Origin: Methylobacterium aquaticum
GTDB lineage: Bacteria; Pseudomonadota; Alphaproteobacteria; Rhizobiales; Beijerinckiaceae
Assembly: GCF_016804325.1 (NCBI RefSeq)
Contig: NZ_CP043627.1
Span: 2,059,001-2,123,000 of the forward strand
Direction: 5' to 3'
DNA length: 64,000 nt
Part shown: positions 7,028 to 27,252 of the stretch, piece after piece
Position numbering within the stretch: the stretch's first letter is position 1
Layout: each line of letters starts with the position of its first letter
Notes under the pieces: generated by a model
The model's input: the letters and a program-made list of their open reading frames with translations, nothing else
Told to the model about the DNA's origin: nothing
The model's database searches: none
Position numbers and translations under genes: made by a program

Positions 7028-7074
7028 CCGCCACTCCGGATGCGCCCCCCATGATGGCGCATCCGGAGTGGCGG
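7028..7074 (+). other. Perfect 19-bp hairpin between rpoA and rplQ
   Basis: The 19 bases at 7028-7046 are exactly complementary to 7056-7074, with a nine-base loop (CCCCATGAT). No T-tract follows. It is the strongest hairpin inside the alpha operon. It may attenuate or process the rpoA-rplQ transcript, or be a remnant of a palindromic repeat. Confidence 0.55.
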
Positions 7075-7141
7075 GAATCCGCACTCACCACAAAGGACGG
7101 CCGACCCGTGGCACGGCGGCCGAGAACCAAAGGAGACAGCC

Positions 7142-7563: not shown

Positions 7564-7589
7564 TCCGCTCGACCTTTTCGATGCCTTCG

Positions 7590-7620
7590 AAGGCGGCCCT
7601 CGCGGGCCGCCTTTCTTTTT
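7590..7620 (+). terminator. Intrinsic terminator after rplQ
   Basis: AAGGCGGCCC at 7590-7599 pairs perfectly with GGGCCGCCTT at 7604-7613 around a TCGC tetraloop, followed by TCTTTTT. It lies 27 bases after the rplQ stop and marks the end of the alpha operon. Confidence 0.9.
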
Positions 7621-7694
7621 GGTCGGGAACCGCGCGGGCCCGACAGGCGATTTCCCTGCGGCACACGCCGCATGCCACAGGAGACGATCGCCCC

Positions 7695-7958
7695 ATGACC
7701 AAGCTGACCATTCCGGCCCTCGCCGCCCTGATCCTCGCCGGCACCGGCACGGCCGCGCTCGCCGACAAGGTCGGCGCCGACTGGATGCCGATCGGCCAGG
7801 TGATCCAGAAGGTCGAGGCCGCCGGCTACAGCCAGATCTCCGAGATCGAGGCCGATGACGGCCATTGGGAAGGGGAGGGGATGAAGGACGGCAAGCCGAT
7901 GAAGTTCAAGGCCGACCCCCGCACCGGCGCCATCCTGTCGGAGAAGGCCGGCAAGTAG
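7695..7958 (+). CDS. Small secreted PepSY-type protein
   Basis: 87-residue protein. Residues 1-23 (MTKLTIPALAALILAGTGTA and following) form a signal peptide, predicting export to the periplasm. The mature part (IGQVIQKVEAAGYSQISEIE, then GHWEGEGMKDGKPMKFKADP and TGAI) has the pattern of a PepSY/YpeB-like domain, a family often described as binding partners or inhibitors of enzymes in the cell envelope. The ATG at 7695 is preceded by a GGAGA stretch. It lies between the rplQ terminator and an aminotransferase gene; no functional link is evident. Confidence 0.8.
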   Translation: MTKLTIPALAALILAGTGTAALADKVGADWMPIGQVIQKVEAAGYSQISEIEADDGHWEGEGMKDGKPMKFKADPRTGAILSEKAGK

Positions 7959-8056
7959 GGCGGTTCCGGCGAGCGATCGACGCGCGAGAGGCTGGATTCC
8001 CGGCGGCGGGAGGCGCAAAGGTGACGCGCTTTTTCGTCCACCAGCGATCTTGTCCG

Positions 8057-11280: not shown

Positions 11281-14200
11281 TCAATGCATCGCCGCCCCGG
11301 CCGGTGCCGCGGCGCCCGGCTCCGCCGGCATGGGGATCGCCGCCGGCCGCCGCCGGGAGAACAGCAGGATCAAGACCGGCAGGATGATCAGGATCAGGAT
11401 CGGCGCCAGGCTCATGCCGCCGACCACCACCAGGGCGAGCGGCTTCTGCACCTGCGAGCCGACGCCCTGCGAGAAGGCGGCCGGCAGGAGGCCGACGCCG
11501 GCGACGACGCAGGTCATCACCACCGGGCGCATCTGGGTGGTGCAGGTCTTCAGCATCGCCTCGGCCCGCGCCTCGCCGCGGGCGATCAGGCCGTTGTAGT
11601 GGGTGAGCACGATGATGCCGTCCATCACCGCGATGCCGAGGAGCGCGATGAAGCCGATCGCCGCCGAGACCGAGAACGGCGTCTCGGTGACGGCCAAGGC
11701 CACCACGCCGCCGGCCACCGCCATCGGGATCACGGAGAGCGCCAGCAGCGTGTCGACCAGCGAGCCGAAATTGACGAAGAGCAGCACGGCGATCAGCAGG
11801 ATCGCCAGCGGCACGGTGACCGAGAGGCGGGCGAGCGCGCCCTGCATGTTGTTGAACTCGCCGACCAGCTCGAGCCGGTAGTCGGGCGGCAGCTTCACCT
11901 CGCGGGCGACGCGCTCGCGGGCCTCGATGATCGTGCTGCCGAGGTCGCGGTCGCGGACGCTGAACTTCACCGGCAGGTAGCGCTCCTGGCCCTCGCGGTA
12001 GATGTAGGCCGGCCCCGACACCAGCTCGACGTCGGCGACGGCATTGAGGGGGATCTGGACCGGCGTGCCGGTCTGGGTCTGGCCGGCGATGCGCAATTCG
12101 CGGATCGCCCGCACGCTCTGGCGGTACTGCGAGGCCAGCCGCACGATGATCGGATAGTGGCGCTCGCTGCCGGTATCGTAGAGCTCGCCCGCCGAATCGC
12201 CGCCGATCGCGGTGCGGACCGTGGTGTTGATGTCGCCCGGGGTCAGGCCGTAGCGGGCGGCCCGGGTCCGGTCGACGTTGATCTGCACCGTCGGCTGGCC
12301 GAGCGAGGTGAAGACGCCGAGATCGGTGACGCCGGGTACCCGCTTCAGCACTGCCTCGACCTCGCGCGCCACGTCGGTGAGCGTCTGCAGGTCGGGCCCG
12401 AACACCTTGAACGAATTCTCGCCCTTGATGCCCGACACCGCCTCGGCGACGTTGTCCTGGAGATACTGCGACAGGTTGAACTCGACGCCCGGGAACTCGG
12501 TGCGCAGGCGCTCCAGCAGCGCGCCGGTCATCGCGTCCTTGCTCATGCCCTCGCGCCATTGCTCGGCGGGCTTCAGGGGCGCGAAGAACTCGCCGTTGAA
12601 GAAGCCGGCGGCATCGGTGCCGTCGTCGGGCCGGCCGTGCTGCGACACCACCCGCTCGACCTCCGGCACCTCGGCGATCACCCGGCGGATGCGGTTGACG
12701 TAGGTGTTGCCCTCTTCCAGCGAGATCGTCGCCGGCATGGTGGCGCGGATCCAGAGGTTGCCCTCCTCGAGCTTCGGCAGGAATTCGAGGCCGAGATTGC
12801 GCCCCTCGACGGCGACGCCGAGGAAGATCAGGCCGGCGAAGCCCAGGGTCAGGGTGCGGTGGGCGAGTGCGGCCCGGATCACCGGCCGGTAGGCCCGGTC
12901 GAGGGCGCGGACCAGGATCGTCTCGACCTCGTGGATGTGGTCCGGCAGCAGGTAGGCCGACAGCACCGGCGTCACCGTGAAGGTGGCGATGAGGCCGCCC
13001 GCCAGAGCGTAGGCATAGGTCTGGGCCATCGGCCCGAAGATGTTGCCCTCGACCCCCGACAGGGTGAAGAGCGGCAGGAAGCCGGTGACGATGATGACCG
13101 CCGCGAACACGATCGAGCGGCTGACGTCGGAGGAGGCGAGCGCGATCAGCCCGAGCTTGCGCGGCATGCCCTTGGCGCCGGCGAGCCCCGGCGGGAGCGG
13201 CGGGCCGTGGCCGGACAGGCGGCGGAAGATCGCCTCGACCATGATGACCGTGCCGTCGACGATCAGGCCGAAATCCAGCGCCCCGACGGAGAGGAGGTTG
13301 GCGGATTCCCCCCGCGCCACCAGGATGATGACGGCGAAGAACAGCGCGAAGGGAATCGTCGCCACGACGATGATCGCGCTCCTCAGGTTGCCGAGGAAGA
13401 GCCACTGCACCACCAGGATCAGCAGGATGCCGACCATCATGTTGTGCAGGACGGTGTGGGTGGTGACGGCGATGAGGTCGGCGCGGTCGTAGATGCGCTC
13501 GATCCTGACGCCGGGGGAAGGATGCCGGCGGCCTCGATCTTCGCCACCTCGGCCTTCACCGCCTCGATCGACGGCGTCGAGCGCTCGCCGCGGCGCATCA
13601 GCACGATGCCCTGGACGATGTCGTCGTCGTCGTTCATCCCGGCGATGCCGAGCCGCGGCTGGTGGCCGATGGTGATGGTGGCGACGTCCTTCACAAGGAC
13701 CGGCGCGCCGCCCGACTGGGCCAGGACCGTCTCGCCGATGTCGTCGACGGAGCGGATCAGGCCGACGCCGCGCACCACCGCCGACTGGCTCCCCAGGGTG
13801 ATGCGGTTGCCGCCGACATTGAGGTTGCTGTCGTTGAGGGTCTTGACCACGCCCGAGAGGGTGAGCCCATGGGCCATCAGCCGGTCGAGGTCGACGCCGA
13901 TCTCGAAGGTCTTGGTCTTGCCGCCCCAGCCGATCACGTCGATGACGCCCGGCACGGCGCGGAAGCGCTTGCGCAGCACCCAGTCCTGGAGCGTCTTCAG
14001 GTCGAGCACGCTGTAGCCGTCCGGCGCGACGAGCTTGTAGCGGAAGATCTCGCCGATCGGGCTCACCGGCGAGATGGTCGGCTTGGCGCCGTTCGGCAGG
14101 GTGTCGAGCTGGGCGAGCCGGTTGAGCACCTGCTGCTCGGCCTCGCGGTAGCTGTTGGCGAAGCCGAATTGCAGCTTCACGTCGGACAGGCCGTAGAGCG

Positions 14201-14453
14201 AGACGGTGCGGACCTGCTTGAGGTCGGGGAGCCCCGAGGTGATGACCTCGATCGGCACCGTGATGTAGCGCTCGATCTCCTCGCCCGAGAGGCCCGGCGC
14301 CTGGGTGATGACGTTCACCATCGGCGGCGTCGGATCGGGATAGGCCTCGATGTTGAGGCTCTGGAATGCCGCGAGCCCGCCGAGCATCAGGGCCACGAAG
14401 GCCAGGACGACGAGGGCGCGCTGGCGCAGGGCGAGGCCGACGATGCCGGTCAT
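11281..14453 (-). CDS. Heavy-metal-type RND efflux permease (CusA/CzcA-like), frame broken once
   Basis: About 1057-residue inner-membrane proton-driven pump. The N-terminal frame runs from MTGIVGLALRQRALVVLAFV to KIEAAGILPP and the C-terminal frame from HNMMVGILLILVVQWLFLGN to the end. One extra base in the G5 run at 13513-13517 (C5 in the gene) restores the normal PPGVRIERIYDRADL. The TM4 motif DFGLIVDGTVIMVE has the acidic residues typical of the heavy-metal (HME) subgroup rather than the drug pumps. The metal cannot be assigned. The adaptor gene lies 46 bases upstream; no outer-membrane channel gene is nearby. Confidence 0.9.
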
Positions 14454-14499: not shown

Positions 14500-15726
14500 T
14501 CAGCTCTGGGTCGACATCCGGTCGATGAAGAGCGAGCCGCGGGAGATCACCCGCTCGCCTTCCCGCAATCCGTCGAGGATCTCGACGGTCGAGCCGTCGA
14601 CGATGCCGGCCCGGACCGGCCGGCTCTCGACGGAGTTGTCGGCTCGCAGCACCCAGACGCTGGCCTTGTTGCCCTCCAGGATCACCGCGGCGCGGGGCAC
14701 GGCGTGGGACAGGTTCTCGCGCTCGTTGATGATGCGGACGCTCGCATACATCTCGGGCTTGAGCAGGCCCTGGCGGTTGTCGATCTCGGCCCGCACGGTG
14801 ATGCGCCGGGTCGCCGGGTCGACCGAGGTGCCGATGAAGTTGATCTTCCCCTCGAAGGTCTTCTCCGGGTGGGCCGGCACCCGGAAGGTCACCTTCTCGT
14901 CGACCTCGACCTTGGCGGCATCGGCCTCGCGCAGCTGCGCGATGAGCCAGACCTTCGACAGGTCACCGATGATGTAGGACGGCTCGCCGCTCGAGCCGAC
15001 ATACTGGCCGGGCCCGATCTTGCGCTGGATGATGGTGCCGCTGAGCGGGGCGTTGATCGGGGTGTTGGGGTTGATCGCCGAGCCCTTCTGGAGGGCGGCC
15101 ATGTCCTCGTCGCGAAGCCCCAGGATGCGCAGGCGGTTGCGCACCGCCTCGAGCCCGACCTCGGCGGTGCGGTTGTCGTTGGTGGCCGAGGTCAGGTCGT
15201 TCTGCGCGGTCTGCAACTCGCGCAAGGTCGTGGTCCGGGTCTCGTAGAGGTCGCGCTGCCGCTTCTCGGCGGCCTGCGCGAAGGTGAGCTGCGAGCGGCT
15301 CTTGTTCAGCACGTTGAGTGCGGCGAGGTAGTCGTTCTGTGCCTGCACCATCTCGTTGGCCTGGACCGAGAACAGCGGCTCGCCGCGCTTCACCTGATCG
15401 CCGGCCCGGGCGAAGATCGCGATCACGCGGCCGGGATAGGGCGAGAAGACCGGCGTCGCCTGGTACTCGTCGACCCCGATCTTGCCCTCGGTGGCGATCT
15501 CCTCGAAGAACCGGCGCTTGACCACCGGCTCGCTCGACACCGTGGCGAGCTGGGACGCCGTGAGGGTGAAGGGCTTGCCCGAGGCCGGCTTGGCCGGCAC
15601 GTCCGCGAAGGTGGCGATCGGTTCCTGGCGGTGGCCCGGGCGCAGATAAGGATAGGCGACGACCGCCCCGGCGGCCACGACGGCCAGGATGACGACTTGG
15701 CTGATCGGTCTCAGCGTCCGGGGCAT
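14500..15726 (-). CDS. RND efflux periplasmic adaptor subunit (membrane fusion protein)
   Basis: 408-residue adaptor. The ATG at 15726 is chosen because it gives an N-terminal membrane anchor (ISQVVILAVVAAGAVVAYPY). The order of parts is typical: a lipoyl/barrel-sandwich half (VFSPYPGRVIAIFARAGDQV), a long alpha-hairpin (NKSRSQLTFAQAAEKRQRDL onward), the second lipoyl half (INAPLSGTIIQRKIGPGQYV), the beta-barrel domain, and the membrane-proximal domain ending LREGERVISRGSLFIDRM. It is the first gene of the operon, followed by the RND pump. Confidence 0.92.
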   Translation of the reverse strand: MPRTLRPISQVVILAVVAAGAVVAYPYLRPGHRQEPIATFADVPAKPASGKPFTLTASQLATVSSEPVVKRRFFEEIATEGKIGVDEYQATPVFSPYPGRVIAIFARAGDQVKRGEPLFSVQANEMVQAQNDYLAALNVLNKSRSQLTFAQAAEKRQRDLYETRTTTLRELQTAQNDLTSATNDNRTAEVGLEAVRNRLRILGLRDEDMAALQKGSAINPNTPINAPLSGTIIQRKIGPGQYVGSSGEPSYIIGDLSKVWLIAQLREADAAKVEVDEKVTFRVPAHPEKTFEGKINFIGTSVDPATRRITVRAEIDNRQGLLKPEMYASVRIINERENLSHAVPRAAVILEGNKASVWVLRADNSVESRPVRAGIVDGSTVEILDGLREGERVISRGSLFIDRMSTQS

Positions 15727-15896
15727 GTTCGTCACACTCTTCGACGGCGGGCGCAGGGTCGCGGCGCGACGGGAATCACCGATCGGCAACGCGCGGGCAA
15801 TACTCAGCCAAAGTTGCTGACGCAAGCGTGAATGGATTCCAGGCCCGAACATTTCGCGGCCGGCTGTGCCGCCGGCGATACACTCGTCCGTCTTAG

Positions 15897-15946: not shown

Positions 15947-17863
15947 TCAGCCCTCCGGCGCGAGCAGGGCCGCGACCCGGGCCGCCAGGTCGGCGGAGAG
16001 GAAGGGCTTTTCCAGCACCGAGAAATCCGGCGGGATCCGCACCGCCTCGGCGTGCCCGGTGACGAGGAGGAAGGGCAAGGCCGGCCAACGGCCGCGCACC
16101 GCTTCGGCGAGGTCGATGCCGCTCATGCCGGGCATCGCCAGGTCGGCGACGACGAGGTCGAACCGCGCGGTCTCCAGCCGTTCGAGGGCCGCCTCGCCGC
16201 TCGGCACCGCGGTCTCGTCGTAGCCGAAGCCGTTGAGGAACGAGGCGGTGACGTGGCGGACCTGGGGATCGTCGTCGACCACCAGGATGCGGGCCCGGCG
16301 CGGCGCCGGGACCGGGGTGCTCGCCGCGACGGGGCCCGCCTCCACTGCCTCGTGGGAGCGCGGCAGGTAGAGCAGCACCGTGGTGCCGTGCCCGACCTCG
16401 CTCTCGATCCGGATCGTGCCGCCGGATTGCTGGACGAGGCCGAACACCATGGCGAGGCCGAGACCCGTACCCTGGCCGACGCCCTTGGTGGTGAAGAACG
16501 GCTCGAACACCCGGCCCAAGATCTCCGGCGGGATGCCGGTGCCGGTGTCGCGGATCGCGATCACCGCATAGTCGCCGGGCTTCAGGTTCGGATCGGAACT
16601 CGCCCGGACCGTCTCGTTGCGGGTCGCGAGGGCGACGACCCCGCCCTCGGGCATCGCGTCGCGGCCGTTGATGCAGAGGTTGAGGATCGCGAGTTCGAGC
16701 TGGTCGGGATCGACCTTCACCGGCCACACATCGTCGCTCAAGGCGCGCTCGACCTGCACGAAGCCGCCCAGGCTGCGCCCGAGCAGGTCGTCCATGCCGA
16801 GGATCACGGCGTTCAGATCGACGACCCGGGCCTGGAGGTCGCGGCGGTGGCTGAAGGTCAGCAGGCGCTTGGTCAGCGCCGCACCGCGCTGCGCGGCCTG
16901 GGCGGCGTTGGTCATCAGCCGCGTCAGGCGCGCATCCCCCGCCACCTTCGGCAGGGCGAGTTCCAGGCTCCCGAGGATTGCGGTGAGCAGGTTGTTGAAA
17001 TCGTGCGCGACGCCGCCCGCCAGCGTGCCGAGCGCCTGCATCTTGTCGGCCTGGCGCAGGCGCCGCTCCAGCAGGCGCTGCTCGGTGATGTCGCGTTCGA
17101 TGACGGCGAGATGGACCACCGCCCCGGCGGGATCGCGGATCGGCACCCGCGTCACCTGGTTCCAGGATTCCCGGGTCTGCCCCGCCTCCGGGCCGCCGCC
17201 CGCCGCCGTGATCTCGGTCGGCGCGCCGGATTCGATCGCCGCCCGGTCGGCGGCCTCGGCCGCTTCCGCGTCGGCGCCGAGAAGAGCCGCCTCGGTGCGG
17301 CCGAGGCAGGCCTCGATCGAGGGAGCGCCCAGGCGCTCCGCCATGCGGGCGTTGAGGCGCAGGAAGCGCCCGTCGGTGTCCTTGAAGGCGATCGCGTCGC
17401 CCGAATGGTCGAGGAGGCCGCGCAGGAGGGCGCGCTCGGTGGCCAGTTCCCGGGCGAGGCGGTGGCGCTCGTAGGCGCTGCGCACCGCGTTGCGCAGGAG
17501 CGCCGGGTCCCACGGCTTGGTGATGTAGCCGGTGATGCCGCCGCGGTTGAGCGCCGAGACCACCGCCGAGATGTCGGCATAGCCCGTGAGCAGGATCGAC
17601 TGCGCGTCCGAGATCTCCCGAGCCCGGGCCAGCAGGGCGTCGCCGGTCAGGCCCGGCATGCGCTGGTCGGACAGGATCACGTCGATGTCGGGCTCGGCGG
17701 CGATCAGCTCCAGGGCCTCGGCCGGCCGGCTGGTGGTGATCACCCGGTACTCGTCCTCGAACAGGTCCTCGAGGGCGACCAGAATGTCCGGCTCGTCGTC
17801 GACCGCCAGGATGGTGCCGCGCACCGTCGGCGGCGATGCCTTGCCCGTCACACCCATGGTCAT
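15947..17863 (-). CDS. Hybrid histidine kinase, REC-PAS-HK-REC
   Basis: 638-residue soluble kinase without membrane segments. An N-terminal receiver (residues about 15-130) has phospho-acceptor D66 and Lys116 in GYITKPWDP. A PAS domain (about 145-265) ends in the DITEQRLLERRL linker. The HisKA domain has H287 in AGGVAHDFNNLL. The HATPase domain (about 385-500) contains DTGTGIPPEI and GQGTGLGLAMVFG. A C-terminal receiver (about 525-637) has D574. Last gene of the chemosensory operon; its ATG overlaps the stop of the upstream kinase by four bases. The N-terminal receiver could accept phosphate from CheA, making this a second-tier output. Confidence 0.92.
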   Translation of the reverse strand: MTMGVTGKASPPTVRGTILAVDDEPDILVALEDLFEDEYRVITTSRPAEALELIAAEPDIDVILSDQRMPGLTGDALLARAREISDAQSILLTGYADISAVVSALNRGGITGYITKPWDPALLRNAVRSAYERHRLARELATERALLRGLLDHSGDAIAFKDTDGRFLRLNARMAERLGAPSIEACLGRTEAALLGADAEAAEAADRAAIESGAPTEITAAGGGPEAGQTRESWNQVTRVPIRDPAGAVVHLAVIERDITEQRLLERRLRQADKMQALGTLAGGVAHDFNNLLTAILGSLELALPKVAGDARLTRLMTNAAQAAQRGAALTKRLLTFSHRRDLQARVVDLNAVILGMDDLLGRSLGGFVQVERALSDDVWPVKVDPDQLELAILNLCINGRDAMPEGGVVALATRNETVRASSDPNLKPGDYAVIAIRDTGTGIPPEILGRVFEPFFTTKGVGQGTGLGLAMVFGLVQQSGGTIRIESEVGHGTTVLLYLPRSHEAVEAGPVAASTPVPAPRRARILVVDDDPQVRHVTASFLNGFGYDETAVPSGEAALERLETARFDLVVADLAMPGMSGIDLAEAVRGRWPALPFLLVTGHAEAVRIPPDFSVLEKPFLSADLAARVAALLAPEG

Positions 17864-19599
17864 GCCGCCCGCCTCGGAATGCTGATCACGAAGCAGGCCC
17901 CTCCCTCGGGCGACGATTCCACGGATAATTGTCCGCTATGCGCCTGCACGACGCTATAGGCAATGGCGAGACCGAGCCCGGTGCCGGATCCGACCGGCTT
18001 CGTCGTGAAGAACGGCTCGAAGATACGCTCGCGAAGATCCTCCGGCACGCCCGGGCCGGTGTCGCAGATCCGGATCACGTCGTGGTCGTCGCGGATCGCG
18101 GTCTCGATCGTGATGGTGCCCTCATCGGGGATCGCGTCGGCGGCGTTGCCGAGGATGTTCATCACCACCTGGTTGAGCAGGGCCGGCGAGCAGCGGATCT
18201 CGGGCGCGCCGGCAAACTCCTTGCGCACGGCGATGCGCGTGCCGAGCTTGTGCTGGATCAGCGCCAGCACGTTCTCGATCGCGTCCGGCACGTTGACGGT
18301 CTGCATCTCGCCCTCGTCGAGGCGCGAGAACTTGCGCAGGTTGACGACGAGATCCTGGATCCGGGACAGGCCGAGGCGCATCGACCCGACCCGGTCGCGG
18401 GCCTTGTCGAGGGCGCGCCGCGACGGGTCGCCCTCCGGTACCGCCGCCGCGACCTCGCCGATCAGCCGCTCGACCGTGCCCTGGTGGGCGAGGATGAAGG
18501 CCAGCGGATTGTTGATCTCGTGGGCGATGCCCGCGACCAGCTCGCCGAGGGACGCCATCTTGGCGGCCTGGACGAGCTTGGCCTGGGTGTCCTTGAGGCG
18601 GTGATTGGCCTGTTCGAGGTCGTGGTTGGCCTGCGCCAGGGCGCCGGCGAGAGCCGCCTTGGCTTCCGCGGCGGTGGCCTCGGCCTTGGCGCGCTCGGCG
18701 GCGAGCGCGTGGCGGCGCACCTCGTCGGCGACCCGGCGGTCATCCTCCTCCAGGAGCTTGCGGCGCACCAGGGTCCGCACCCGGATCGCCAGGAGGTCGG
18801 CATCGCCGCCCCGCGGCGAGACGTCCTTGGTCACCACGTCGTCGGCGCCGGCCGAGAAGGCCTCGACCAGGAGGTCCTTGCTGGAGGAGGCGGCCGAGCC
18901 GATCCCGACGAGGGAGAAGCCCGGTGCGCCGGCGCCGGTGGCGGCGACGCGAAAGCCGTCGATCCGGCGGCACAGCGCGATGGCGTCGAAGCCCGTGCCC
19001 AGGAGGTCCACGGTGACGCAGTCGAAATGCTTGCCAGGCGCCTCGAGCGCCGCCATCGCCTGGTCGGGCCCGTCGGCGGCGACGACCTCGTGGCCCTCCT
19101 GGCCGAGCAGCGCCGAGAGATAGGCCCGGAAGGTCGCCGAGCCGTCGACGACGAGGATGCGGGCGCGGCGAAAATTCGCCGTCCGGCCCGGCTCGTCCGC
19201 CGGCACGGCGGTGCGCTCGCGCAGGAGCGCCCGGATGCGCAGCAGCAGCAGGTCGCGGTCGGCGGATTTCGGCACGTAGGCGTCGGCGCCGCTCTCCAGG
19301 CCCTGGCGCTCGATGTCCCGCCCGCTCGCCTCGGTCAGCATCAGCACCGGCGTCGCCCGGGTGCGCATGGCGAGCCGCATCTGACGCGTCAGCTCGTCGC
19401 CGTTCATCCCCGGTAGGTGGTAATCGGCCACCACGAGGTCGGGCAGGCCGTGATTCATCGCCTCGAGCGCCGCTTCCGCGGTGGCGTGGCGCGTCACCGC
19501 AAAGCCGTTGCGCTCCAGGAAGAGGCGCAATTGCAGGGCCTGGGTCTCGGAATCCTCGACCAGCAGGATGCGGGGCGAGGAAGCGGGCGAGCCCGTCAC
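17860..19599 (-). CDS. Histidine kinase with two N-terminal receiver domains (CheS-like)
   Basis: 579-residue soluble kinase. Receiver 1 (residues about 10-130) has an intact acidic pocket (LLVEDS) and D59. Receiver 2 (about 147-280) has D198 in VTVDLLGTG, but the usual acidic pair reads VVDGSA (D152, G153), so one Mg-binding acid is lost. A helical linker (about 285-345) rich in Ala and Glu precedes the HisKA His, H360 in VAGIAHEINNPLAF. The HATPase follows, with FFTTKPVGSGTGLGLAIAYS. Its GTG start overlaps the cheB stop by four bases. A comparable REC-REC-kinase (CheS3) is known from the Rhodospirillum centenum Che3 cyst-development cluster; the link is by architecture only. Confidence 0.9.
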   Translation of the reverse strand: MTGSPASSPRILLVEDSETQALQLRLFLERNGFAVTRHATAEAALEAMNHGLPDLVVADYHLPGMNGDELTRQMRLAMRTRATPVLMLTEASGRDIERQGLESGADAYVPKSADRDLLLLRIRALLRERTAVPADEPGRTANFRRARILVVDGSATFRAYLSALLGQEGHEVVAADGPDQAMAALEAPGKHFDCVTVDLLGTGFDAIALCRRIDGFRVAATGAGAPGFSLVGIGSAASSSKDLLVEAFSAGADDVVTKDVSPRGGDADLLAIRVRTLVRRKLLEEDDRRVADEVRRHALAAERAKAEATAAEAKAALAGALAQANHDLEQANHRLKDTQAKLVQAAKMASLGELVAGIAHEINNPLAFILAHQGTVERLIGEVAAAVPEGDPSRRALDKARDRVGSMRLGLSRIQDLVVNLRKFSRLDEGEMQTVNVPDAIENVLALIQHKLGTRIAVRKEFAGAPEIRCSPALLNQVVMNILGNAADAIPDEGTITIETAIRDDHDVIRICDTGPGVPEDLRERIFEPFFTTKPVGSGTGLGLAIAYSVVQAHSGQLSVESSPEGGACFVISIPRRAA

Positions 19600-20669
19600 G
19601 CCGGAAAGCCCGGCTGCACCGCCCGCAGGATCCGCGGGGCGATCAGGTCGAGGGGGAGCACGCTGCCCGCCGCCTTGAGCCGCACCGCCGCCGCCGGCAT
19701 CCCGTAGACGACGGCCGAGCTCTCGTGCTCGGCGATGGTGGCCGCGCCCGCGAGATGCATGTCGAGGAGGCCGGTGGCGCCGTCCTCGCCCATGCCGGTG
19801 AGCAGCACGCCGAAGCCCCGCGGCCCGGCCGAGCGGGCGACGGAGCGGAACAAAACGGTGGCCGACGGGCGCTGCCCGCCGACCGGCGGTTCGTCGAGGA
19901 GGGCCAGGAGCCCGCCGGGACCAAGGGCGAGGTGCCGGTCGCCGGGCGCGACGTAGACGTGGCCGGGTTGCGGCCGCACGCCCTCGGTGGCGATGACGAC
20001 GGTGAGCGGCACGACGCCGTTCAGCCAGTCGGCGAAGCCCTCCATGAAGGCCGCGCCCATGTGCTGGACGAGAAGCACGGGGAGCGGGAAATCCGCCGGC
20101 AGGCCGCCGAGCAGCTTGGCGAAGGCGGGCGGTCCCCCCGTCGAGGCGGCGACCGCCAGCACGCTCGGCGCCTGGGTCGCGGGGATCGTGCCTCGAAGAT
20201 CCTCCCGGGGTGCATCGCCGCGGGTGAGGCGTTCCGCGCCGATCGGCCGGCGCCGGATCACCGGCACCTGGCTCATGATGCGCAATTGCGTGCAGATCTG
20301 GTCGGCGATCGCCTCGTAGGCGCGGTTCCCGGTGCCGACCGGCTTCTCGACCACGCTGAGCGCGCCCGCCCGCAGGGCGTTCATCGAGATCTTGAGCGAG
20401 GAATCCTCGACCGCGTCGGCCACGACCACGATCGGGGTCGGGCGCTCGGCCATGATCCGCCGGGTGGTCTCGAGCCCGTCGATGCCGGGCAGGCGGATGT
20501 CCATCGAGATCACGTCGGGCTGGACCCGGTGGATCTCGCGCAAGGCCTCCTCGCCGGAATCGACCGCGGCGACGAGGGCGAGCCGCGGGTCGCGGCTGAC
20601 GATGTGGGCGAGGAGCTGGCGCACCACCAGCGAATCCTCCACCAGCATGACGCGGACGGGGGTGCTCAC
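19596..20669 (-). CDS. cheB: CheB-type chemoreceptor glutamate methylesterase
   Basis: 357-residue methylesterase/deamidase that resets receptor methylation. The receiver domain has D57 (VISMDIRLPG) and Lys109. The catalytic domain has the triad S176 (AVAASTGG), H203 (LLVQHMG) and D296 (GMGEDGATG). All expected residues are present. The GTG start at 20669 overlaps the cheA stop (GTGA), and its own stop overlaps the next kinase start, so expression is translationally coupled. Position corresponds to WspF in Wsp-type operons. Confidence 0.95.
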   Translation of the reverse strand: MSTPVRVMLVEDSLVVRQLLAHIVSRDPRLALVAAVDSGEEALREIHRVQPDVISMDIRLPGIDGLETTRRIMAERPTPIVVVADAVEDSSLKISMNALRAGALSVVEKPVGTGNRAYEAIADQICTQLRIMSQVPVIRRRPIGAERLTRGDAPREDLRGTIPATQAPSVLAVAASTGGPPAFAKLLGGLPADFPLPVLLVQHMGAAFMEGFADWLNGVVPLTVVIATEGVRPQPGHVYVAPGDRHLALGPGGLLALLDEPPVGGQRPSATVLFRSVARSAGPRGFGVLLTGMGEDGATGLLDMHLAGAATIAEHESSAVVYGMPAAAVRLKAAGSVLPLDLIAPRILRAVQPGFPA

Positions 20670-22987
20670 AGCAGCTGACCGATCGTGTCGAGAAGCTCGC
20701 GCTGGTCGAACTTCTGCTTGGTGATGTAGGCGTCGGCCCCGAGATCGAGGCCCCGGCGGATGTCGGCGGGATCGCCGCGGGAGGTCATCAGGATCACCGG
20801 CAGCCGCGTCAAGCCCGGATCGGCCTTGACCGCCTGGAGCAGGCCGAACCCGTCGAGGCGCGGCATCTCCACGTCGGCGACCACGAGGTCGACGTCGGCC
20901 CCGTCCCGCCGCAGGCGGTCGAGGGCGTCCTGCCCGTCGACGCAGACGAAGACCCGGTAGCCATGCGCCTCCAGGATGCTCTTCTCCAGGGTCCGGGTGG
21001 TGATCGAATCGTCGACCACCAGCACGGTCGGCACGCGCTTCGCGCGGCGCTCCGGCGTATGCGCGGGAGCGGCGGCCACCAGCCCGCCGGTTCGCGCCCG
21101 GGCGCACAGGCCGTCCGGGTCGAGCACCAGGGCCGGCATCTCGTCGGCGAGCATGACGGTGCCGGACATCAGCGCGGGGTCGCCGCCGAAGGGCGGGGCC
21201 GGGCCGACGAGGAGCACCCGCACGTCGAGGAGCCGGTCGACGGCGACGGCCACGAGCGCGGGGCCGCAGCGCAGGAGGACGGCGCGGACGAGGCCGTCAC
21301 GGAGGGGGAGGGGAGCGACACCGGATCCGAGGAGCGAGGCGAGGGGAACGAGAGGCACGACAACGTCCCGTCCCCCCTGCTTGATCCGTGCCGCCGGCTC
21401 GCCCGCCACGGACGCGAGGTCGCGCTCGGCGAGGCGCAGGAGGCCGGCGACCGCGCCGCTCGGCAGGCCGAAGGTCTGGGGCGCCTCGCCGGGCGCCAGG
21501 GCCGCCTCGACGAGCAGCACCGGCTGGCGCGCGGCCGACAGCGGCACCGTGATGACGACCTCGGTGCCGGAGGGCTCCGCCGGCCGCAAGGACGCCCGGC
21601 CGCGCAGGGACCGCGCGGCTTCCGCCACCACCGACAGGCCCATGCCGCGCCCGGCGATCCGGTCGACCGCCGTCGCGGTCGAGAAGCCCGGCGCGAAGAC
21701 GAGGTCGAGGATCTCGTCCGGGCCGGGCTCGTCCCCCGCGGCCACCAGGCCCTGGCGCCGTCCGGTCTCGAGGATGCGGGCGAGATCGGGGCCGCGGCCG
21801 TCGTCGCGGATCGTCACGACGAGCTGGCTGCCCTTCGAGGCGACCGACAGGGTGACGGACAGGGCCTCGGGCTTGCCCGCCGCCCGGCGCGCGTCCGGGG
21901 ATTCGGCACCGTGGCTGATCGTGTTGCGCAGGGCGTGCAGCACCGGGTCCTTCAGCGCCTGCAGCAACCCGCGATCGACCTGGAGGTCGAGGCCGTGGAG
22001 CCGCACCTCGATCGGCAGCCCGGCCTCGCGGGCGATCTCCCGCACCATCCGGCCGTAGCCGCCGAACACCGTCTCGGCCGGGACCAGCAGCAGCCGGTCG
22101 GCATCGTCGCGCAGGCGCCGCAGGGCGGTATCGACCGCGCCGGTGCTGCGGCTCTGCACCCGGGCGAGGCCCGAGATGCCGCGGATCACCGCCCTCAGGT
22201 CGCCGTCGAGGCGGCGCACCCGGTCGACGAAGCCGTCGAGCGCGATCCCCGCCGGGTCGCCGGCCTCGCGCAGGCGGCGGGCGAGCGCCACCATCTCGCC
22301 GGTGCGGCCCTGCACCGTGTCGACGCTGCGGCGCAAGGACCGCGCCCCGGATTCGAGGCCCGTGATCGCGCCCCCGATCGCCTCCTGGCCCTGGAGCACG
22401 GCGGTGAGGTCGTGCACCGCCTTTGACAGGCTCTCGACCTGGTCGCTGGCGATGCGCAGGTAGGAAATCGCGCCGTCCTGCGGGGCGGGCTCGGACGCCG
22501 GCTTCGGCTCGGGCTTCGGTTCCGTCTTGGGCTTCGCCTCCGTCTTGGGTGCGGGCTTGGGGTCGGATTCCGGCTCGGATCGGGAGGCGGGCTCGGCCGA
22601 CGGGACCGGCGCGCCGGACAGGCAGGCATCGAGCGCCGCGATGGCGTCGGCGGGAGCCGCCGGCTCAGGGGTCTCGGCGAGGCCCGCGACCAGCCCCTCG
22701 ATCCGGTCGAGGGCGAGATCGACCACCCCGGCGGTCGCCCGGTCGAGGCCGGTGCGGCCCTGCACCACCCGGTCGAACAGGGCTTCCAGCCGGTGGGCGA
22801 TCTCCTCCACCGCCGGCAGGTCGACGGCCCGGGCCGCCCCCTTCAGGCTGTGGGCGCGGCGGAAGACGTCGTTCCAGTCCGCCGGACGGCCCGCCTCGGC
22901 CGCGGCGAGGGCCGCCCGGATCGCCGCGAGATGCTCGCGGTGCTCGGCGTCGAAGGCCGCGAGGAGAAGCTGGCGGATATCGTCCAT
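20666..22987 (-). CDS. cheA: CheA-type hybrid kinase with C-terminal receiver (WspE-like)
   Basis: 773-residue chemosensory kinase. The N-terminal Hpt domain carries H46 (FRRAHSLKGAAR). A Pro/Glu/Lys-rich linker (about 130-170, repeats of PKPEPK type) follows, then the dimerisation region, the HATPase (VLHALRNTISHGAE as N-box, RGMGLSVVAEAARSL as G-box), a CheW-like regulatory domain, and a receiver (about 655-770) with its Asp in VVADVEMPRLDG. The fused receiver is typical of WspE/ACF-class CheA. Its ATG lies 25 bases after the receptor stop, and its stop overlaps cheB. Confidence 0.94.
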   Translation of the reverse strand: MDDIRQLLLAAFDAEHREHLAAIRAALAAAEAGRPADWNDVFRRAHSLKGAARAVDLPAVEEIAHRLEALFDRVVQGRTGLDRATAGVVDLALDRIEGLVAGLAETPEPAAPADAIAALDACLSGAPVPSAEPASRSEPESDPKPAPKTEAKPKTEPKPEPKPASEPAPQDGAISYLRIASDQVESLSKAVHDLTAVLQGQEAIGGAITGLESGARSLRRSVDTVQGRTGEMVALARRLREAGDPAGIALDGFVDRVRRLDGDLRAVIRGISGLARVQSRSTGAVDTALRRLRDDADRLLLVPAETVFGGYGRMVREIAREAGLPIEVRLHGLDLQVDRGLLQALKDPVLHALRNTISHGAESPDARRAAGKPEALSVTLSVASKGSQLVVTIRDDGRGPDLARILETGRRQGLVAAGDEPGPDEILDLVFAPGFSTATAVDRIAGRGMGLSVVAEAARSLRGRASLRPAEPSGTEVVITVPLSAARQPVLLVEAALAPGEAPQTFGLPSGAVAGLLRLAERDLASVAGEPAARIKQGGRDVVVPLVPLASLLGSGVAPLPLRDGLVRAVLLRCGPALVAVAVDRLLDVRVLLVGPAPPFGGDPALMSGTVMLADEMPALVLDPDGLCARARTGGLVAAAPAHTPERRAKRVPTVLVVDDSITTRTLEKSILEAHGYRVFVCVDGQDALDRLRRDGADVDLVVADVEMPRLDGFGLLQAVKADPGLTRLPVILMTSRGDPADIRRGLDLGADAYITKQKFDQRELLDTIGQLL

Positions 22988-23012
22988 CGGGGCGTGGCGC
23001 TGTCGTCGTCGC

Positions 23013-24689
23013 TCAGAGCCGGTAGCGCTCGGCCAGCGCCAGGAGGGCGGCGGCGAGTTCGCTCAGGTTGGCGGCGGCGGCCTCGACCTGGCGGGTGCCG
23101 GCGGCGGTCTGCTGGCTCGCCTGGCGGATGTTCTGGAGCGCGCCCATCACCTGCTCGATGCCGAGCTGCTGCTGGTTGGTCGAGGCGACGATCTGCTGGA
23201 AGGTCTGGACGCTCTCCTGCACCCGGGCGGTGATCTCTTCGATCGTCGCATGGGTGGTATCGGTGCGCTCCTTGCCCACCGCGACGCGCTTGACCGCCTC
23301 CTCCGTCAGCATCACCGAGGCGTTGATGCCGCGCTGGATGTCGCCGAGGATGGCCCGCACCTGGCCGGTCGCCTCCTTGGCCTGGTCGGCGAGCGCCTTC
23401 ATCTCCGAGGCCACCACCGCGAAGCTGCGCCCGCTCTCGCCCGCCGCCGCCGCCTCGATGGCGGCGTTGAGCGCCAGGAGATGGGTGCGCTCCGAGACGT
23501 CGTTGACGGTCGCGATGATCTCGCCGATCGCCTGCGTCTTCTCGCTCAAGGCAACGATGTTCTCGGCCACCGCCTCGCTCTGCTCGCGGATCGCGTCCAT
23601 GGCCTTCGCCGTCTCGTCGACGGCGCGCAAGCCCGCACTCGAGGTCTGGGCGGTGGCCTGCGCCGTGGCGATGACCTCCTGCGCGCGCTTGCCGATCTGG
23701 GCACCCGCATGGGTGATCTCGTCGACGGTGGCGGCGGTCTCCTGCACGGCGGCGAACTGCTCCTCGACGCTCGCCGCCTGCTCCTGGGCCGAGGCGCGGA
23801 TCTCGGCGGCGGCGGCGTTGAGGTTCGAGGTCGAGGCGCGGTTCTGGCTGGCGAGCTGGCGCAGGCCCTCGACCATCTGGTTGAGGACGCCGCCGAGGCG
23901 GCCGAGCTCGTCGCGCCGGCTGTCGGCGATGCGGCCGGTGAGGTCGCCGCTGCCGACCTTGCCGACGAAGGCCATCACCGCGTCGAGGGGCTGCACCACC
24001 GAGCGGCGGATCAGAACCGTGATGACGACCGCCATGACGACGCAGAGGGCCAACGCCACCAGGGTCGAGAGCCGGCTCTCCTCGTAGATCGCCCCGACCC
24101 GGCGCTGGCCGGCGGTGATCGCGCCGTCGAGGGCGTCGCGTGCCGCGCCCATGGTGCGCACGAAGTTCTCGCCGGACTGGTCGAGGGCGGTCTCGGAGGC
24201 CTGGATGGCCGGCACGTCGCTGGCGTTGATCGCCTCGAACTGGCGCTCGGTGGCGGTGCGCGTGGTGCGCAACTCGGCGCCGGCCGCGACCAGCAATTCG
24301 GCGATGCGCTGCCAGGCGGCGGCGCGGTCGGCCGAGAGCGACTGGGCCCGGTAGTCGTTGGCGGTGGTGATCGCGCCGGCCAGAGCCGTCTCGGCGGAGG
24401 CGGCGGTGCGGCGCCAGGTCACCGTCGGCTCCTCCTTGGAGGTCAGCTCGCGGCCGAGCGCCCGCAGATAGTAGCGGGTGGCCGCCTCGTCGCGCAGGTC
24501 GCTCATCCGGCGCTGCGCCTCACGGATGTTCTCGAGCTGGTGCATCACCGTCAGGTCGCGGGTGACGATGATGTCGGTGGCGTTGCGCACCTCGCCGATC
24601 TGCCCGACCGCGTAGACGCCGAGCGCCACGATCACCAGGACGACGGCGGCGAAGCCGAGGAGGATGCGGTTCCCGATCGAGAGCGACAC
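23013..24689 (-). CDS. Methyl-accepting chemoreceptor of the Wsp-like operon
   Basis: 558-residue receptor. TM1 (residues about 7-29, [20 protein letters not shown]) is followed by an all-helical periplasmic region of about 160 residues resembling a four-helix-bundle sensor. TM2 (about 190-215) leads to a HAMP domain ([20 protein letters not shown]) and a long signalling coiled coil whose tip reads [20 protein letters not shown] and [13 protein letters not shown]. No C-terminal CheR-tethering pentapeptide is seen. The GTG start is at 24689. It is the only receptor in the operon, so it is presumably the dedicated input. Confidence 0.93.
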
Positions 24690-24720
24690 GCGAGAATTTC
24701 TCTTTGGCTGGATGGCGGGG

Positions 24721-25317
24721 TCAGGCCGGCCCGGGCCGGCCGGAGGCGAGGAGCGGCGCCAGGAGAGAGGCCAAGTCTATCACTGCGAAGTCGATCACCG
24801 CGGAGACGGGTTCGTCGGGATTCCGTGCGGCGACGCGGGCATACCCCGCCACCGCCCGCCTGCCCAGCCCCTCGGCCGAGGGCTCGACCACGGCCTCGGT
24901 CATCGACAGGACGCGATCGACCCTGAGGCCGATGCGGGGACCGTCGCGGCGCAGGGCCACGACGTGGCCGCCGGCTTCCTCCCGAGAGGCCGGCCCTGTG
25001 CCGAGGGCCGCCGCGAGATCGAGCACGGTGACGAGCGCCCCGCCGCGCCCGGTGAGTCCGACGAGGGCGGCCGGCGCCCCCGGCACCGGGGTGCAGGGCC
25101 TGAACGGAAACACCTCGGCGACGCCGTCGAGGGGGAGACCGACCGTCTCGGCGCCGGCCCGGCAGACCAGCAGCGAGCGGGTCGGCCGCGCCTCCGGCGC
25201 CGCGCCCCGTGTGGCGAGGCTGCGGGTGCGGGACTCCAGGATCTCCTCGATCCGGGCGGCGGTCAGGGCGTTGTCGCCGGGCAGGGCCGGCCCGGCGGGA
25301 AGGGCGGATTGCGGCAT
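24721..25317 (-). CDS. cheW: CheW-like adaptor (second of the operon)
   Basis: 198-residue adaptor with one CheW domain (residues about 45-185, starting [20 protein letters not shown]). [17 protein letters not shown] and [20 protein letters not shown] are the usual beta-barrel segments coupling receptor and CheA. The N-terminal 40 residues are an extra helix-rich extension. Its ATG shares one base with the cheR stop (TGATG). Confidence 0.9.
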
Positions 25318-26738
25318 CAGGCGGCCTCGTCGCCCAGAAGCGGCCGGGCGGCGCCGGAGAGATCGCCGGCCGTGAGCCCGTCGCCCTCGGGCAGCACCGC
25401 CTCGGCCGGCAGGGTCGCGGCGAGCCGCAGGGCGTTGGCTACGGCACGCCGACCGGCCTCGCGGCGGCCGGCGGCGATCAGGGTCAGCCCGAGGTGGTAA
25501 TGCGCCATCACGAAGCCTTTATCGAGATAGAGCGCGCCGCGGAAGGCACGTTCCGCCTCGTCCGGCCGGGCCCGGGCGCGGGCGAGCAGTCCTTCGTAGT
25601 AGCGCAGGCGCGGATCGGTCGGGTCCTGCCCCAGGGCCGCCCGGCAGGCCTGCCAGCTCGCCTCGAGGTCGCCCGCATCGGCGAGCGCCCGGACGAGGGC
25701 GAGGGCCCCCGGGGGGCTCGCTCCCTCCGTCGTGGCCGGGATGGGCGCCGGTGTCTCCGGCACGAGCCGGGGCGCCGGGGCCGGCTCGGGCGCCGTCGGA
25801 GGCAGGAGCGGCATCCAGGCCGTGTCCGGGACCGGCTCGGGCAGGGCGGCCGGGGGCGGGCCCATGTCCGGCAGCATCCCGTCTCCCCGGCGGCGATAGG
25901 CGGCGGTGCCCGGCAGGGAGACGGGGTCCAGGAACTCCGCGAAGGCCGGGTTCGGCTCGGCATGTCCCAGCAGCAGCCAGCCGCCGGGCCGCAGGCGCTG
26001 CGCCAGCGCCCGCACCAGGGCCTGCACCACGTCCGGGTGGAAGTAGATCAGGACGTTGCGGCACAGGATTAGGTCGTACTCGGTCAGCGCCAGGGAGGCC
26101 GTGCCGTCCAGCAGGCTCATCAGGTTCTGCGGCTCGAACCGGGCGAGCCCGCGGAACTCCGGTTTCAGCGCGAAGGTGCCCTCCCGCGGGCCGGGCCGGA
26201 AGTAGCGCTCGCGCTCCTCCGCCCCGAGGGTGCGCAGGGCCCAGGTGCCGTAGACCGCCCGCCGGGCGATTCCGAGCACGTCGCGGTTGATGTCGGTGCC
26301 GGTGAGCCCGATGCGCCAGTCGGGCAGGCGCTCGCCCAGGAGTTCGTGCAGCACGATCCCGACCGAATAGGTCTCCGGCCCGGTGGAGCAGCCCGCGCTC
26401 CAGATCCTCAGCCGCCGCTCGGCGCCCCTTGCGGCGATGCGCTCGGGCAGGATCGTGCCGCGCAGGGCCGCGAATTGCTCGGCGTAGCGGAAGAAGAACG
26501 TCTCGCCGATGGTGATCTCGGATTCGAGCGCCGCCCACTCCCCCTCCGATCCCTCCAGGAGCGCGAGGTAGCCGGCGGGATCGGGGACGCCCCGGGCGCG
26601 CATGCGCCGGCCGACCCGCTCCCACAGGAGGTCGTCCTTGTCGGCGTAGTAATGGTGGCCGGTTCGGGCGACGAGGCGGCCCTTGAGCGCCGCGAAGGCC
26701 GGGTCGCAGGTCGGGGCCGCGCCCTTCAGGGGCCGCAT
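25317..26738 (-). CDS. cheR: CheR-type methyltransferase with C-terminal TPR region (WspC-like)
   Basis: 473-residue SAM-dependent glutamate O-methyltransferase for chemoreceptors. The N-terminal CheR helix bundle (about 15-85) leads into the Rossmann-like catalytic domain: ESEITIGETFFFRYAEQFAA, the SAM motif RIWSAGCSTGPETYSVGIVL, and the CheR signature ILCRNVLIYFHPDVV. A Pro/Ala-rich linker (about 290-345) precedes a TPR-like C-terminus (LVRALADAGDLEASWQACRA; FRGALYLDKGFVMAHYHLGL). A TPR-tailed CheR between two CheW genes is the WspC arrangement. Confidence 0.94.
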   Translation of the reverse strand: MRPLKGAAPTCDPAFAALKGRLVARTGHHYYADKDDLLWERVGRRMRARGVPDPAGYLALLEGSEGEWAALESEITIGETFFFRYAEQFAALRGTILPERIAARGAERRLRIWSAGCSTGPETYSVGIVLHELLGERLPDWRIGLTGTDINRDVLGIARRAVYGTWALRTLGAEERERYFRPGPREGTFALKPEFRGLARFEPQNLMSLLDGTASLALTEYDLILCRNVLIYFHPDVVQALVRALAQRLRPGGWLLLGHAEPNPAFAEFLDPVSLPGTAAYRRRGDGMLPDMGPPPAALPEPVPDTAWMPLLPPTAPEPAPAPRLVPETPAPIPATTEGASPPGALALVRALADAGDLEASWQACRAALGQDPTDPRLRYYEGLLARARARPDEAERAFRGALYLDKGFVMAHYHLGLTLIAAGRREAGRRAVANALRLAATLPAEAVLPEGDGLTAGDLSGAARPLLGDEAA

Positions 26739-26745
26739 CTCCGGG

Positions 26746-27252
26746 TCAGGCCGCCCACTCGGCGAGGCGCGCCTGCGCGTCCCGGGTCTGCGCCGCGAGG
26801 CGGTCGCGCTCCTCGGCGAGGAGGATGCGGTCGACGGCGAGCCCGTGCACCAGCCGCTCGCCCACCCGGATCTCGGCGGCGACGCAGCCGTTCAGCGTCG
26901 CCCCGTCGGCGACCGGCCGCACACGGTCCGGTTCGACCCGCACGACGTCCGCGACCCGGTCGACGAGCAGGGCCAGGGGCGACTCGCCCTTGAGCAGGAT
27001 CAGGTGGCGGTAGAGCGCCGCCCGATTCGTCGCAGCGATGGCCGTCCCCGGCTGGCCGAGGCCGAACAGCGCCGCGAGATCGACCACCGGCACGGCGCTG
27101 CCGGCGAGGTTGAGGAAGCCCGCGAGCGCCCCCGGCGCCCCCGGCGGACGCCACAGCCGCGGCAGGGGCAGGATCTCCCGCACCGCCCCGCGCGGCAGGG
27201 CGCACTCCGTTCCGGCGATCGCGACCAAGAGGTAGGCCGTCCCGGTCGTCAT
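26746..27252 (-). CDS. cheW: CheW-like adaptor (first gene of the chemosensory operon)
   Basis: 168-residue single CheW domain protein. The ATG at 27252 (MTTGTAYLLVAIAGTECALP) is chosen because upstream codons are not CheW-like. LAGFLNLAGSAVPVVDLAAL and LALLVDRVADVVRVEPDRVR are the core strands. It ends with a charged helix (ILLAEERDRLAAQTRDAQAR). It lies seven bases upstream of cheR and opens the eight-gene operon, whose promoter should be in the 27.25-27.4 kb gap. Confidence 0.9.
   Translation of the reverse strand: MTTGTAYLLVAIAGTECALPRGAVREILPLPRLWRPPGAPGALAGFLNLAGSAVPVVDLAALFGLGQPGTAIAATNRAALYRHLILLKGESPLALLVDRVADVVRVEPDRVRPVADGATLNGCVAAEIRVGERLVHGLAVDRILLAEERDRLAAQTRDAQARLAEWAA

Follow-up and report, generated by a model that had tools for sequence, protein, structure and literature searches.

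The output of many non-flagellar chemosensory pathways is unknown, and the operon described in this study raises that question in a specific form: to what does a chemoreceptor array signal when its genes are followed by two multidomain histidine kinases? The operon lies in a 64,000-nucleotide stretch of the Methylobacterium aquaticum genome (contig NZ_CP043627.1, positions 2,059,001 to 2,123,000; referred to here as the window), which is part of contig 1 of a 7.28-Mb genome (G000). An earlier reading of these letters, made without database searches and called here the sequence-only reading, took the operon for a Wsp-like system in which phosphate from CheA could enter a branched phosphorelay through four receivers. 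We propose, with a probability of about 0.6, that the output is a linear kinase cascade belonging to a pathway of the Che3/CheS3 type, i.e., an alternative-cellular-function (ACF) pathway. The array would then probably act on one histidine kinase (HkA) that governs a second (HkB), rather than on flagella or a second messenger. The linear cascade is favored over a branched relay because one of the four receivers is degenerate and because, in the comparative evidence, the kinase core of HkA pairs with the first receiver of HkB. The eight genes, in their order on the minus strand from 27252 to 15947, are as follows.

cheW1: 26746..27252, minus strand, CheW coupling protein of 168 amino acids (Pfam CheW, 82 bits)
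cheR: 25317..26738, minus strand, CheR methyltransferase of 473 amino acids with a TPR-like tail (CheR_N/CheR; Pfam CheR, 137 bits)
cheW2: 24721..25317, minus strand, second CheW, 198 amino acids (Pfam CheW, 68 bits)
mcp: 23013..24689, minus strand, chemoreceptor of 558 amino acids with a GTG start (Pfam MCPsignal, 108.5 bits; HAMP, 43.3 bits)
cheA: 20666..22987, minus strand, Hpt-HATPase-CheW-REC protein of 773 amino acids (Hpt H46; REC D705 and K757)
cheB: 19596..20669, minus strand, REC-methylesterase of 357 amino acids, GTGA overlap with cheA
hkA: 17860..19599, minus strand, REC1-pseudoREC2-coil-HisKA-HATPase kinase of 579 amino acids, 4-nucleotide overlap with cheB
hkB: 15947..17863, minus strand, REC-PAS_4-HisKA-HATPase-REC hybrid kinase of 638 amino acids, 4-nucleotide overlap with hkA

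All eight tightly packed genes are present where the sequence-only reading had placed them. The intergenic gaps are at most 31 nucleotides, and from cheA onwards the genes overlap by 4 nucleotides (GTGA at 20666-20669 for cheA/cheB, with overlaps of the same length at cheB/hkA and hkA/hkB). The two overlaps pointed out earlier, at cheB/hkA and hkA/hkB, are therefore real, while the coupling begins one gene further upstream, at cheA and not at cheB. The Pfam scan, for which the CheB sequence was used without its first 16 residues, agrees with the domains assigned earlier except at two points: the TPR tail of CheR has no Pfam TPR match and is seen only as a weak TPR-type NCBIfam match (residues 349-419, E 1.3e-4), and the second receiver of HkA is degenerate. 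In the NCBIfam scan of the operon proteins, which covered the best 25 families for the larger proteins, no match exceeded the cut-off. For residue conservation we used 92 loci (80 named and 12 others), all found through hkA, of which three are duplicated, leaving 89 distinct loci. H46 of CheA is kept in 79/79 readable loci, and D705 and K757 are kept in all 89.

The gene set is indeed that of Wsp minus the GGDEF regulator, since the Pfam scan finds no GGDEF gene within the operon; it shares with Wsp two CheW, CheR, a CheA with a receiver, and CheB (PMC8552884). As a statement of kinship, however, the comparison with Wsp does not hold. The gene order differs from the receptor-CheW-CheR-CheW-CheA-CheB order of Wsp, CheA lies outside the group of Wsp-order clusters and with a CheS3-type operon (100/100), and there are two coupled kinases instead of one. 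The operon is also alphaproteobacterial, whereas the accessible text of a survey describes Wsp as exclusive to beta- and gammaproteobacteria (PMC8552884). A closer counterpart is found on a plasmid of Indioceanicola profundi (locus L267), in which CheW-CheR-CheW-receptor-CheA-CheB is followed, at the position of hkA, by a REC-REC-PAS-HWE_HK protein. This is the architecture of Rhodospirillum centenum CheS3, a REC-REC-PAS-HWE kinase (PMC3868531). Residues 10-382 of HkA are 36% identical to the L267 protein (E 9e-40), which bears out the earlier citing of CheS3 as a precedent for a REC-REC kinase. The REC1 aspartate of the L267 kinase is residue 54 and its REC2 site is an alanine, both as in CheS3. 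In a midpoint-rooted tree of 27 CheA cores, in which L267 stands in for R. centenum Che3, three Wsp-order clusters represent the Wsp side, and R. centenum, Pseudomonas, and Burkholderia sequences are absent, the 14 CheA of hkA/hkB operons form one clade (98/97). Two Azospirillum sequences (95/92) and that of Indioceanicola join this clade, and these 17 are split at 100/100 from 10 others, which comprise the CheA of the three Wsp-order clusters, of L203, and of L216-L218 as well as three more from G000.

On this evidence the operon is best read as nearer to the R. centenum Che3/CheS3 type than to Wsp. HkA would be a CheS3-type kinase with an exchanged kinase half, because of its homology to the L267 protein, its position, and the CheA tree. 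With the R. centenum Che3 system (CheA3-CheS3-CheY3, cyst formation) the operon shares two CheW, CheR, a receptor, a CheA with a receiver, CheB, and then a REC-REC kinase (PMC3868531). It differs in that HkA has a HoxJ/HupT-like HisKA core without PAS in place of the PAS-HWE half of CheS3, and in that the gene list and Pfam show no stand-alone CheY within the operon, REC1 of a second hybrid kinase coming next instead; HkA therefore appears to represent a variant of the Che3 type and not CheS3 itself. A kinase as output is not a new idea, because the hybrid kinase WspH replaces the diguanylate cyclase WspR in Burkholderia (PMC8552884) and kinase modules are reported in about 40% of the regulators of CheR-TPR clusters (PMC3447774, accessible text). 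CheR-TPR together with kinase-bearing regulators is a trait of the ACF class; here CheR and kinase regulators are present and the TPR tail is weakly detected. The sequence-only reading had known of no Wsp precedent for a second coupled kinase, a doubt that WspH, as a kinase in place of WspR, answers in part. A literature search, which reached few subscription journals, returned no paper that deals with the Methylobacterium operon or with the pairing of HkA and HkB, and the two-kinase form of output was not found in print.

The domains of HkA are as follows.

hkA REC1: 19219..19572, minus strand, residues 10-127, proposed CheA target, phospho-site D59
hkA REC2: 18829..19161, minus strand, residues 147-257, degenerate receiver
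hkA kinase core: 17863..18645, minus strand, residues 319-579, phospho-acceptor H360

In REC1 of HkA, the residues E15, D16, D59, T89, and K111 are all kept in 89/89 distinct loci, and the domain is 52-55% identical to REC1 of the CheS3-type L267 protein and to that of a kinase at locus L119. In REC2, the phospho-site at position 198 is Asp in 78 loci, Asn in 10, and Ser in 1, so that it is lost in 11/89, and the second acidic position, 153, is Asp in 13/89 and missing in 76/89. Judged from these residues, REC2 is degenerate, so HkA and HkB together have three credible receivers where four had been counted. The same arrangement, REC1 intact and REC2 degraded with an alanine at the phospho-site, is described for CheS3 (PMC3868531). 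According to Pfam, HkA has no PAS domain and its core is HisKA-HATPase; H360 and N485 are kept in 89/89 distinct loci, and the core is 52% identical to the RsbU_N-kinase of a stressosome operon (L120). In the predicted structure of HkA (mean predicted local distance difference test score, pLDDT, of 74.3; predicted template modeling score, pTM, of 0.41), REC2 shows the alternating strands and helices of a receiver, and one long helix (residues 267-386, of low confidence in places) links REC2 to the kinase. A fold search with this model returned generic receiver/PleD and kinase matches.

The single domains of HkA and HkB were compared with those of relatives found in other settings and of 26 paralogue kinases from five genomes. 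Outside colinear operons, the core of HkA has relatives at L118 (54% identity), L120 (52%), and L121 (45%), with scores of 228-269 bits, compared with at most 120 bits for the other kinases of the comparison set. Near each of these three kinases lies a protein with an N-terminal REC that shares 50-52% identity with REC1 of HkB (121-129 bits), while the best other receiver of the set reaches 53.5 bits. Beyond this receiver the partner proteins have little in common with HkB: their PAS domains are 30-32% identical, and their kinase cores and C-terminal receivers are outside the 14 best matches. At the level of sequence comparison, the unit that is conserved across settings is the core of HkA together with REC1 of HkB. 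At L118 (genome G753), an hkA ortholog and a REC-PAS-HK-REC partner precede a Che core that is not the one seen here. At L120 (605-6114, minus strand, genome G645), the setting is a stressosome operon that encodes a REC-PAS-HK-REC protein, a protoglobin-STAS protein (RsbR-like), a STAS protein (RsbS-like), an RsbT-type ATPase, a SpoIIE protein (RsbX-like), and the RsbU_N-kinase. The last of these lacks REC1 and REC2 of HkA, as expected if those receivers are the CheA-facing input. The hybrid kinase of L120 is the best HkB match in G645 (451 bits, the next being 325), and its score also exceeds those of all 24 other matches in G000 (at most 351 bits). Stressosomes with an RsbU_N-kinase output have been described (PMC9237108 and PMC12143880, accessible text); that of L120 resembles the present system in its core (52% to HkA) and in REC1 of its hybrid kinase (52% to HkB), whereas its input is presumably the binding of RsbT and not a receiver phosphorylated by CheA. 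Across the class, the core of HkA (queried with the L120 kinase, E 1e-60) was found in 6/385 sampled genomes, with at most 5 candidates scored in each, and all 6 have a REC-PAS-HK protein in the same cluster. REC1 of HkB (E 1e-22) was found in 4/289 sampled genomes, with at most 15 scored in each, and 4/4 also hold the core of HkA.

Plasmids show the same association. In a scan that recorded one place per record, and in which many records are near-copies and not independent, receivers like REC1 of HkB occur on 54 records (E 1e-12, all listed) and kinases like the core of HkA on 72 (E 1e-36), 60 of which were listed. Among those listed, 32 records hold both, and in all 32 the two lie within 8.2 kb of each other; the chance expectation for 16 representative records is about 0.9. 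Two of the 32 are records of the operon itself, and the other 30 are of Burkholderia, Rhizobium, Acidovorax, Agrobacterium, Variovorax, Azospirillum, Vibrio, and Bradyrhizobium. As controls, REC2 of HkB (60 of 163 records listed) shares a record with listed HkA-core matches in the two operons only, and REC1 of HkA (31 records) does so in the two operons and in three records in which the partners are about 49 kb or more apart, so that no control domain lies within 10 kb of an HkA core beyond the two operon records. The proteins that carry the paired plasmid receivers are HD-domain proteins, sigma-54 regulators, or response regulators of other kinds; beside HD-domain or sigma-54 regulators the identities are 35-46%, and one of the HkA-core-like kinases precedes a hupU gene. 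We take HoxJ and HupT to be kinases of this kind and a Cupriavidus match to be HoxA itself. HupT-HupR is a kinase-regulator pairing in hydrogen sensing. The hydrogen-sensing kinase HoxJ phosphorylates the regulator HoxA (PMC10073562). As in the HoxJ/HupT-HoxA/HupR type, the kinase core and the receiver are encoded together in 32/32 records holding both, and HkB-REC1-like receivers are found on sigma-54 regulators. The difference is that the receiver drives transcription in those systems, whereas we propose that it controls another kinase here.

The domains of HkB are as follows.

hkB REC1: 17456..17821, minus strand, residues 15-136, proposed receiver of HkA, phospho-site D66
hkB PAS_4: 17075..17413, minus strand, residues 151-263 (Pfam, 61.9 bits)
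hkB kinase core: 16349..17065, minus strand, residues 267-505, HDFNN-type, H287
hkB REC2: 15950..16288, minus strand, residues 526-638, phospho-site D574

In HkB, D66 is kept in 89/89 loci, H287 in 88/88 readable loci, and D574 in 87/87 readable loci. The best NCBIfam matches of its kinase are PRK13557 (413.8 bits) and two CckA models (379 and 317.5 bits), all under the cut-off. The hkB ortholog at L117 (3150-4883, minus strand) stops after the HATPase domain and has no C-terminal receiver, so REC2 of HkB seems to have been dispensable at least once. Methylorubrum extorquens, which is tractable in the laboratory, has an HkB-like protein of 622 amino acids whose REC1 is 75% identical. A scan of viral contigs with an hkB alignment gave only general kinases (27-48% identity, 77 loci).

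The phosphotransfer steps, the signs of regulation, and the output of the following scheme are predicted. CheA would answer to a membrane receptor array that CheR and CheB tune, and it would phosphorylate D59 in REC1 of HkA, as CheA3 does CheS3; the receiver of CheA itself and CheB may serve as sinks or feedback. This step is proposed from the homology to CheS3 and the position of the gene. Phosphotransfer from CheA3 to REC1 of CheS3 was visible in vitro only when the receiver of CheA3 itself was mutated (PMC3868531). Phosphorylated REC1 would then act through the degenerate REC2 and the long helix on the kinase core of HkA, a HoxJ/HupT-like kinase whose cognate receiver would be REC1 of HkB (D66); the co-occurrence of the two domains is what suggests this transfer. 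REC1 and PAS of HkB would set the activity of its CckA-like kinase, which may pass phosphate through the C-terminal receiver to an unlinked Hpt protein or regulator. In evolutionary terms, the N-terminal half of CheS3, which faces CheA, would have been retained, and the kinase core would have come in together with its cognate receiver as a cassette. We consider the chances to be even that the system is a three-tier cascade of CheA, HkA, and HkB downstream of a chemoreceptor array, that phosphorylation of its own N-terminal receiver is what switches each lower kinase, and that the HkA core and REC1 of HkB form an exchangeable cassette that serves CheS3-type arrays, another Che core, and a stressosome. 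The genus-wide conserved operon offers a specific, testable wiring, which names the receiver that CheA should phosphorylate, the one that HkA should phosphorylate, and the one that is degenerate. It also suggests a route of functional change, by which the CheA-facing half of a kinase is retained and its core is swapped together with the cognate receiver. The shared output cassette, if true, connects chemoreceptor arrays and a stressosome.

That the two kinases are a conserved part of the operon, as the sequence-only reading assumed, is evident from their distribution. A match to hkA (E 1e-60 or better) is present in 111/111 genomes of the genus, and hkB is matched in 111/111 as well, at ortholog level in 110, the match in G328 being listed only at paralogue level. 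hkB adjoins hkA, with an alignment gap of at most 113 nucleotides, in 89/89 distinct loci, and all eight genes are in order in 60/89. Among the 29 incomplete loci, 25 run out of sequence, with at most 218 nucleotides remaining upstream; one of these 25, L187, has its cheA match out of order. Two others, L181 and L186, lack upstream genes, and the last two, L027 and L029, have a second cheW that scores under the threshold. In loci L020-L029 (n = 10), the other operon genes surround hkA in order, L023 beginning at cheA since its contig starts there and L029 having a second cheW that went unrecognized. The named relatives of the locus are mostly from Methylobacterium and Methylorubrum, and the full gene set also occurs in Microvirga (L184 and L198), in members of two more families of the class (L116 and L117), and on plasmid pL11-C of Pseudoroseomonas cervicalis, where cheB is unannotated. 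In the order, hkA was found in 11/297 sampled genomes (at most 4 candidates scored per genome), of which 6 belong to the genus itself, 3 to a single genus of a different family, and 2 to a third family; the other genera of the genus's own family, represented by 6 sampled genomes, yielded none. Its presence in other families and absence from the sister genera sampled make the distribution patchy. Among the 80 loci with at least 3 kb of sequence beyond hkB, 8 of which are outside Methylobacterium and Methylorubrum, no downstream gene family is general, and neither a conserved GGDEF gene nor a conserved DNA-binding gene was found there; the sequence-only reading had named a conserved downstream GGDEF gene in relatives as evidence that would overturn it. 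Three downstream families span both groups of loci, the largest of which (10 loci) consists of ABC transporter ATPases of 27-35% identity. The largest families downstream (42/82 loci), one of which resembles ribosomal protein S11 by eye, occur in Methylobacterium-type loci alone, and the window has none of them.

The explanation that comes closest to the linear cascade shares its wiring and reverses its sign, and its odds overlap with those of the preferred reading for that reason: HkA may be mainly a phosphatase of REC1 of HkB, so that CheA toggles HkA and HkB is governed by the removal of phosphate. We regard this as a tentative second choice. Phosphorylation of REC1 of CheS3 by CheA3 lowers the kinase output of CheS3 (PMC3868531), and phosphorylation by HoxJ inactivates HoxA (PMC10073562), so that in both precedents, as far as the accessible texts go, phosphorylation turns the target off; the kinase residues H360 and N485 are nevertheless kept in all 89 distinct loci. 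The branched relay, in which CheA would phosphorylate the receivers of HkA and HkB directly and the two kinases would act in parallel, is unlikely. Both kinases share an operon with CheA and carry intact receivers, and the single REC-kinase WspH of Burkholderia is a predicted direct target of WspE (PMC8552884, accessible text). However, REC1 of HkB also accompanies the HkA core at places without a nearby cheA gene (the L120 stressosome and the plasmid loci L225 and L227), and its relatives at such CheA-free loci have an HkA-type kinase alongside.

Two further explanations would move the output elsewhere. In a true Wsp system, an unlinked diguanylate cyclase would be the real output and the kinases accessory, which we consider very improbable: the gene set is that of Wsp, REC-GGDEF comes last in L221, a related cluster of the Wsp order, and L118 carries a REC-GGDEF gene some 6 kb upstream of its hkA, but no downstream family is general in the 80 loci, CheA is outside the Wsp-order group, and the WspH precedent is described as operating without changes in cyclic di-GMP (PMC8552884, accessible text). 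The least probable case, by a narrow difference, is that the kinases are co-transcribed passengers of a separate pathway. Kinase pairs of the HkA-HkB type do occur without adjacent Che genes (L120 and L121); against this, the adjacency and frequent coupling extend across several families and a plasmid, and HkA bears a CheS3-type N-terminal half, which L267 has at the same place in its Che operon.

Several observations weigh against the linear cascade of the Che3/CheS3 type. L203, L217, and L218 have the same gene order and yet their CheA fall in the other group, so gene order alone is no marker of the Che3 kind. The L119 kinase, with a REC1 that shares 55% identity with HkA's, is encoded some 100 kb away from the Che cluster on its contig, which indicates that REC1 of HkA is not a Che-only receiver. 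The two kinases of L120 are in one operon but separated by four genes, and L120, the only stressosome example, is a single 9.1-kb contig of a draft genome with 4% contamination; no second copy was found in 4 other genomes of the family of G645. The G753 partner ranks, at 187 bits, below other G753 kinases as an HkB match, because its kinase half differs. On plasmids, 22/54 records with a REC1-type receiver (of Pseudoalteromonas, 9 of 10 Rhizobium, Cupriavidus, Paracoccus, and Fuscovulum) have no HkA-core match among the 60 of 72 listed. The mirror-tree correlation (r 0.92, 18 loci) ignores shared descent and is not relied on.

Some loci of the sample are of interest in themselves. In Methylobacterium, L181 (1-5100) and L186 (1-7158) have no cheW or cheR upstream despite flanks of 5.1 and 7.2 kb, and L186 also lacks the receptor, which may be true loss or an assembly fault. 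Methylobacterium draft contigs break inside the receptor gene of the operon in L128, L138, L144, L151, and other short loci, probably because repeated receptor sequences cause an assembly problem. On pL11-C, the frame of cheB between cheA and hkA looks broken (L223 12896-13953, plus strand), and the feedback methylesterase may be missing. The gene that follows hkB in the window encodes a CusB/HlyD-type membrane-fusion protein (14500-15852), and beyond it lies an efflux-pump gene (11281-14453, minus strand), of the resistance-nodulation-division (RND) type by eye, that is spread over two overlapping frames (14453-13437 and 13440-11281) and therefore looks frame-broken.

The genes around related clusters and kinases vary as well. 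In G753 (L118 7080-8024 and 13752-19501, plus strand; L203), the REC-GGDEF gene is upstream of hkA by about 6 kb, and at L119 of Niveispirillum (3291-8037, minus strand), a REC-REC-HK-REC-Hpt kinase adjoins an Hpt-REC-REC-GGDEF protein. Next to CheB, L216 has a REC-PAS-HK-REC protein plus a REC-EAL protein, and L221, of the Wsp order, has REC-GGDEF. Azospirillum ramasamyi L269 (12504-15018, plus strand) shares this Che core, after which come a 255-residue protein with one recognized receiver and an HK-REC kinase; the former is annotated as a transcription factor, but its reading as a DNA-binding regulator was dropped, since Pfam shows the receiver only and no output domain. The alphaproteobacterial Wsp-order clusters L219 (11388-12959, plus strand) and L220 (6893-8470, minus strand) end in a REC-SpoIIE (PP2C-type) phosphatase in place of a diguanylate cyclase.

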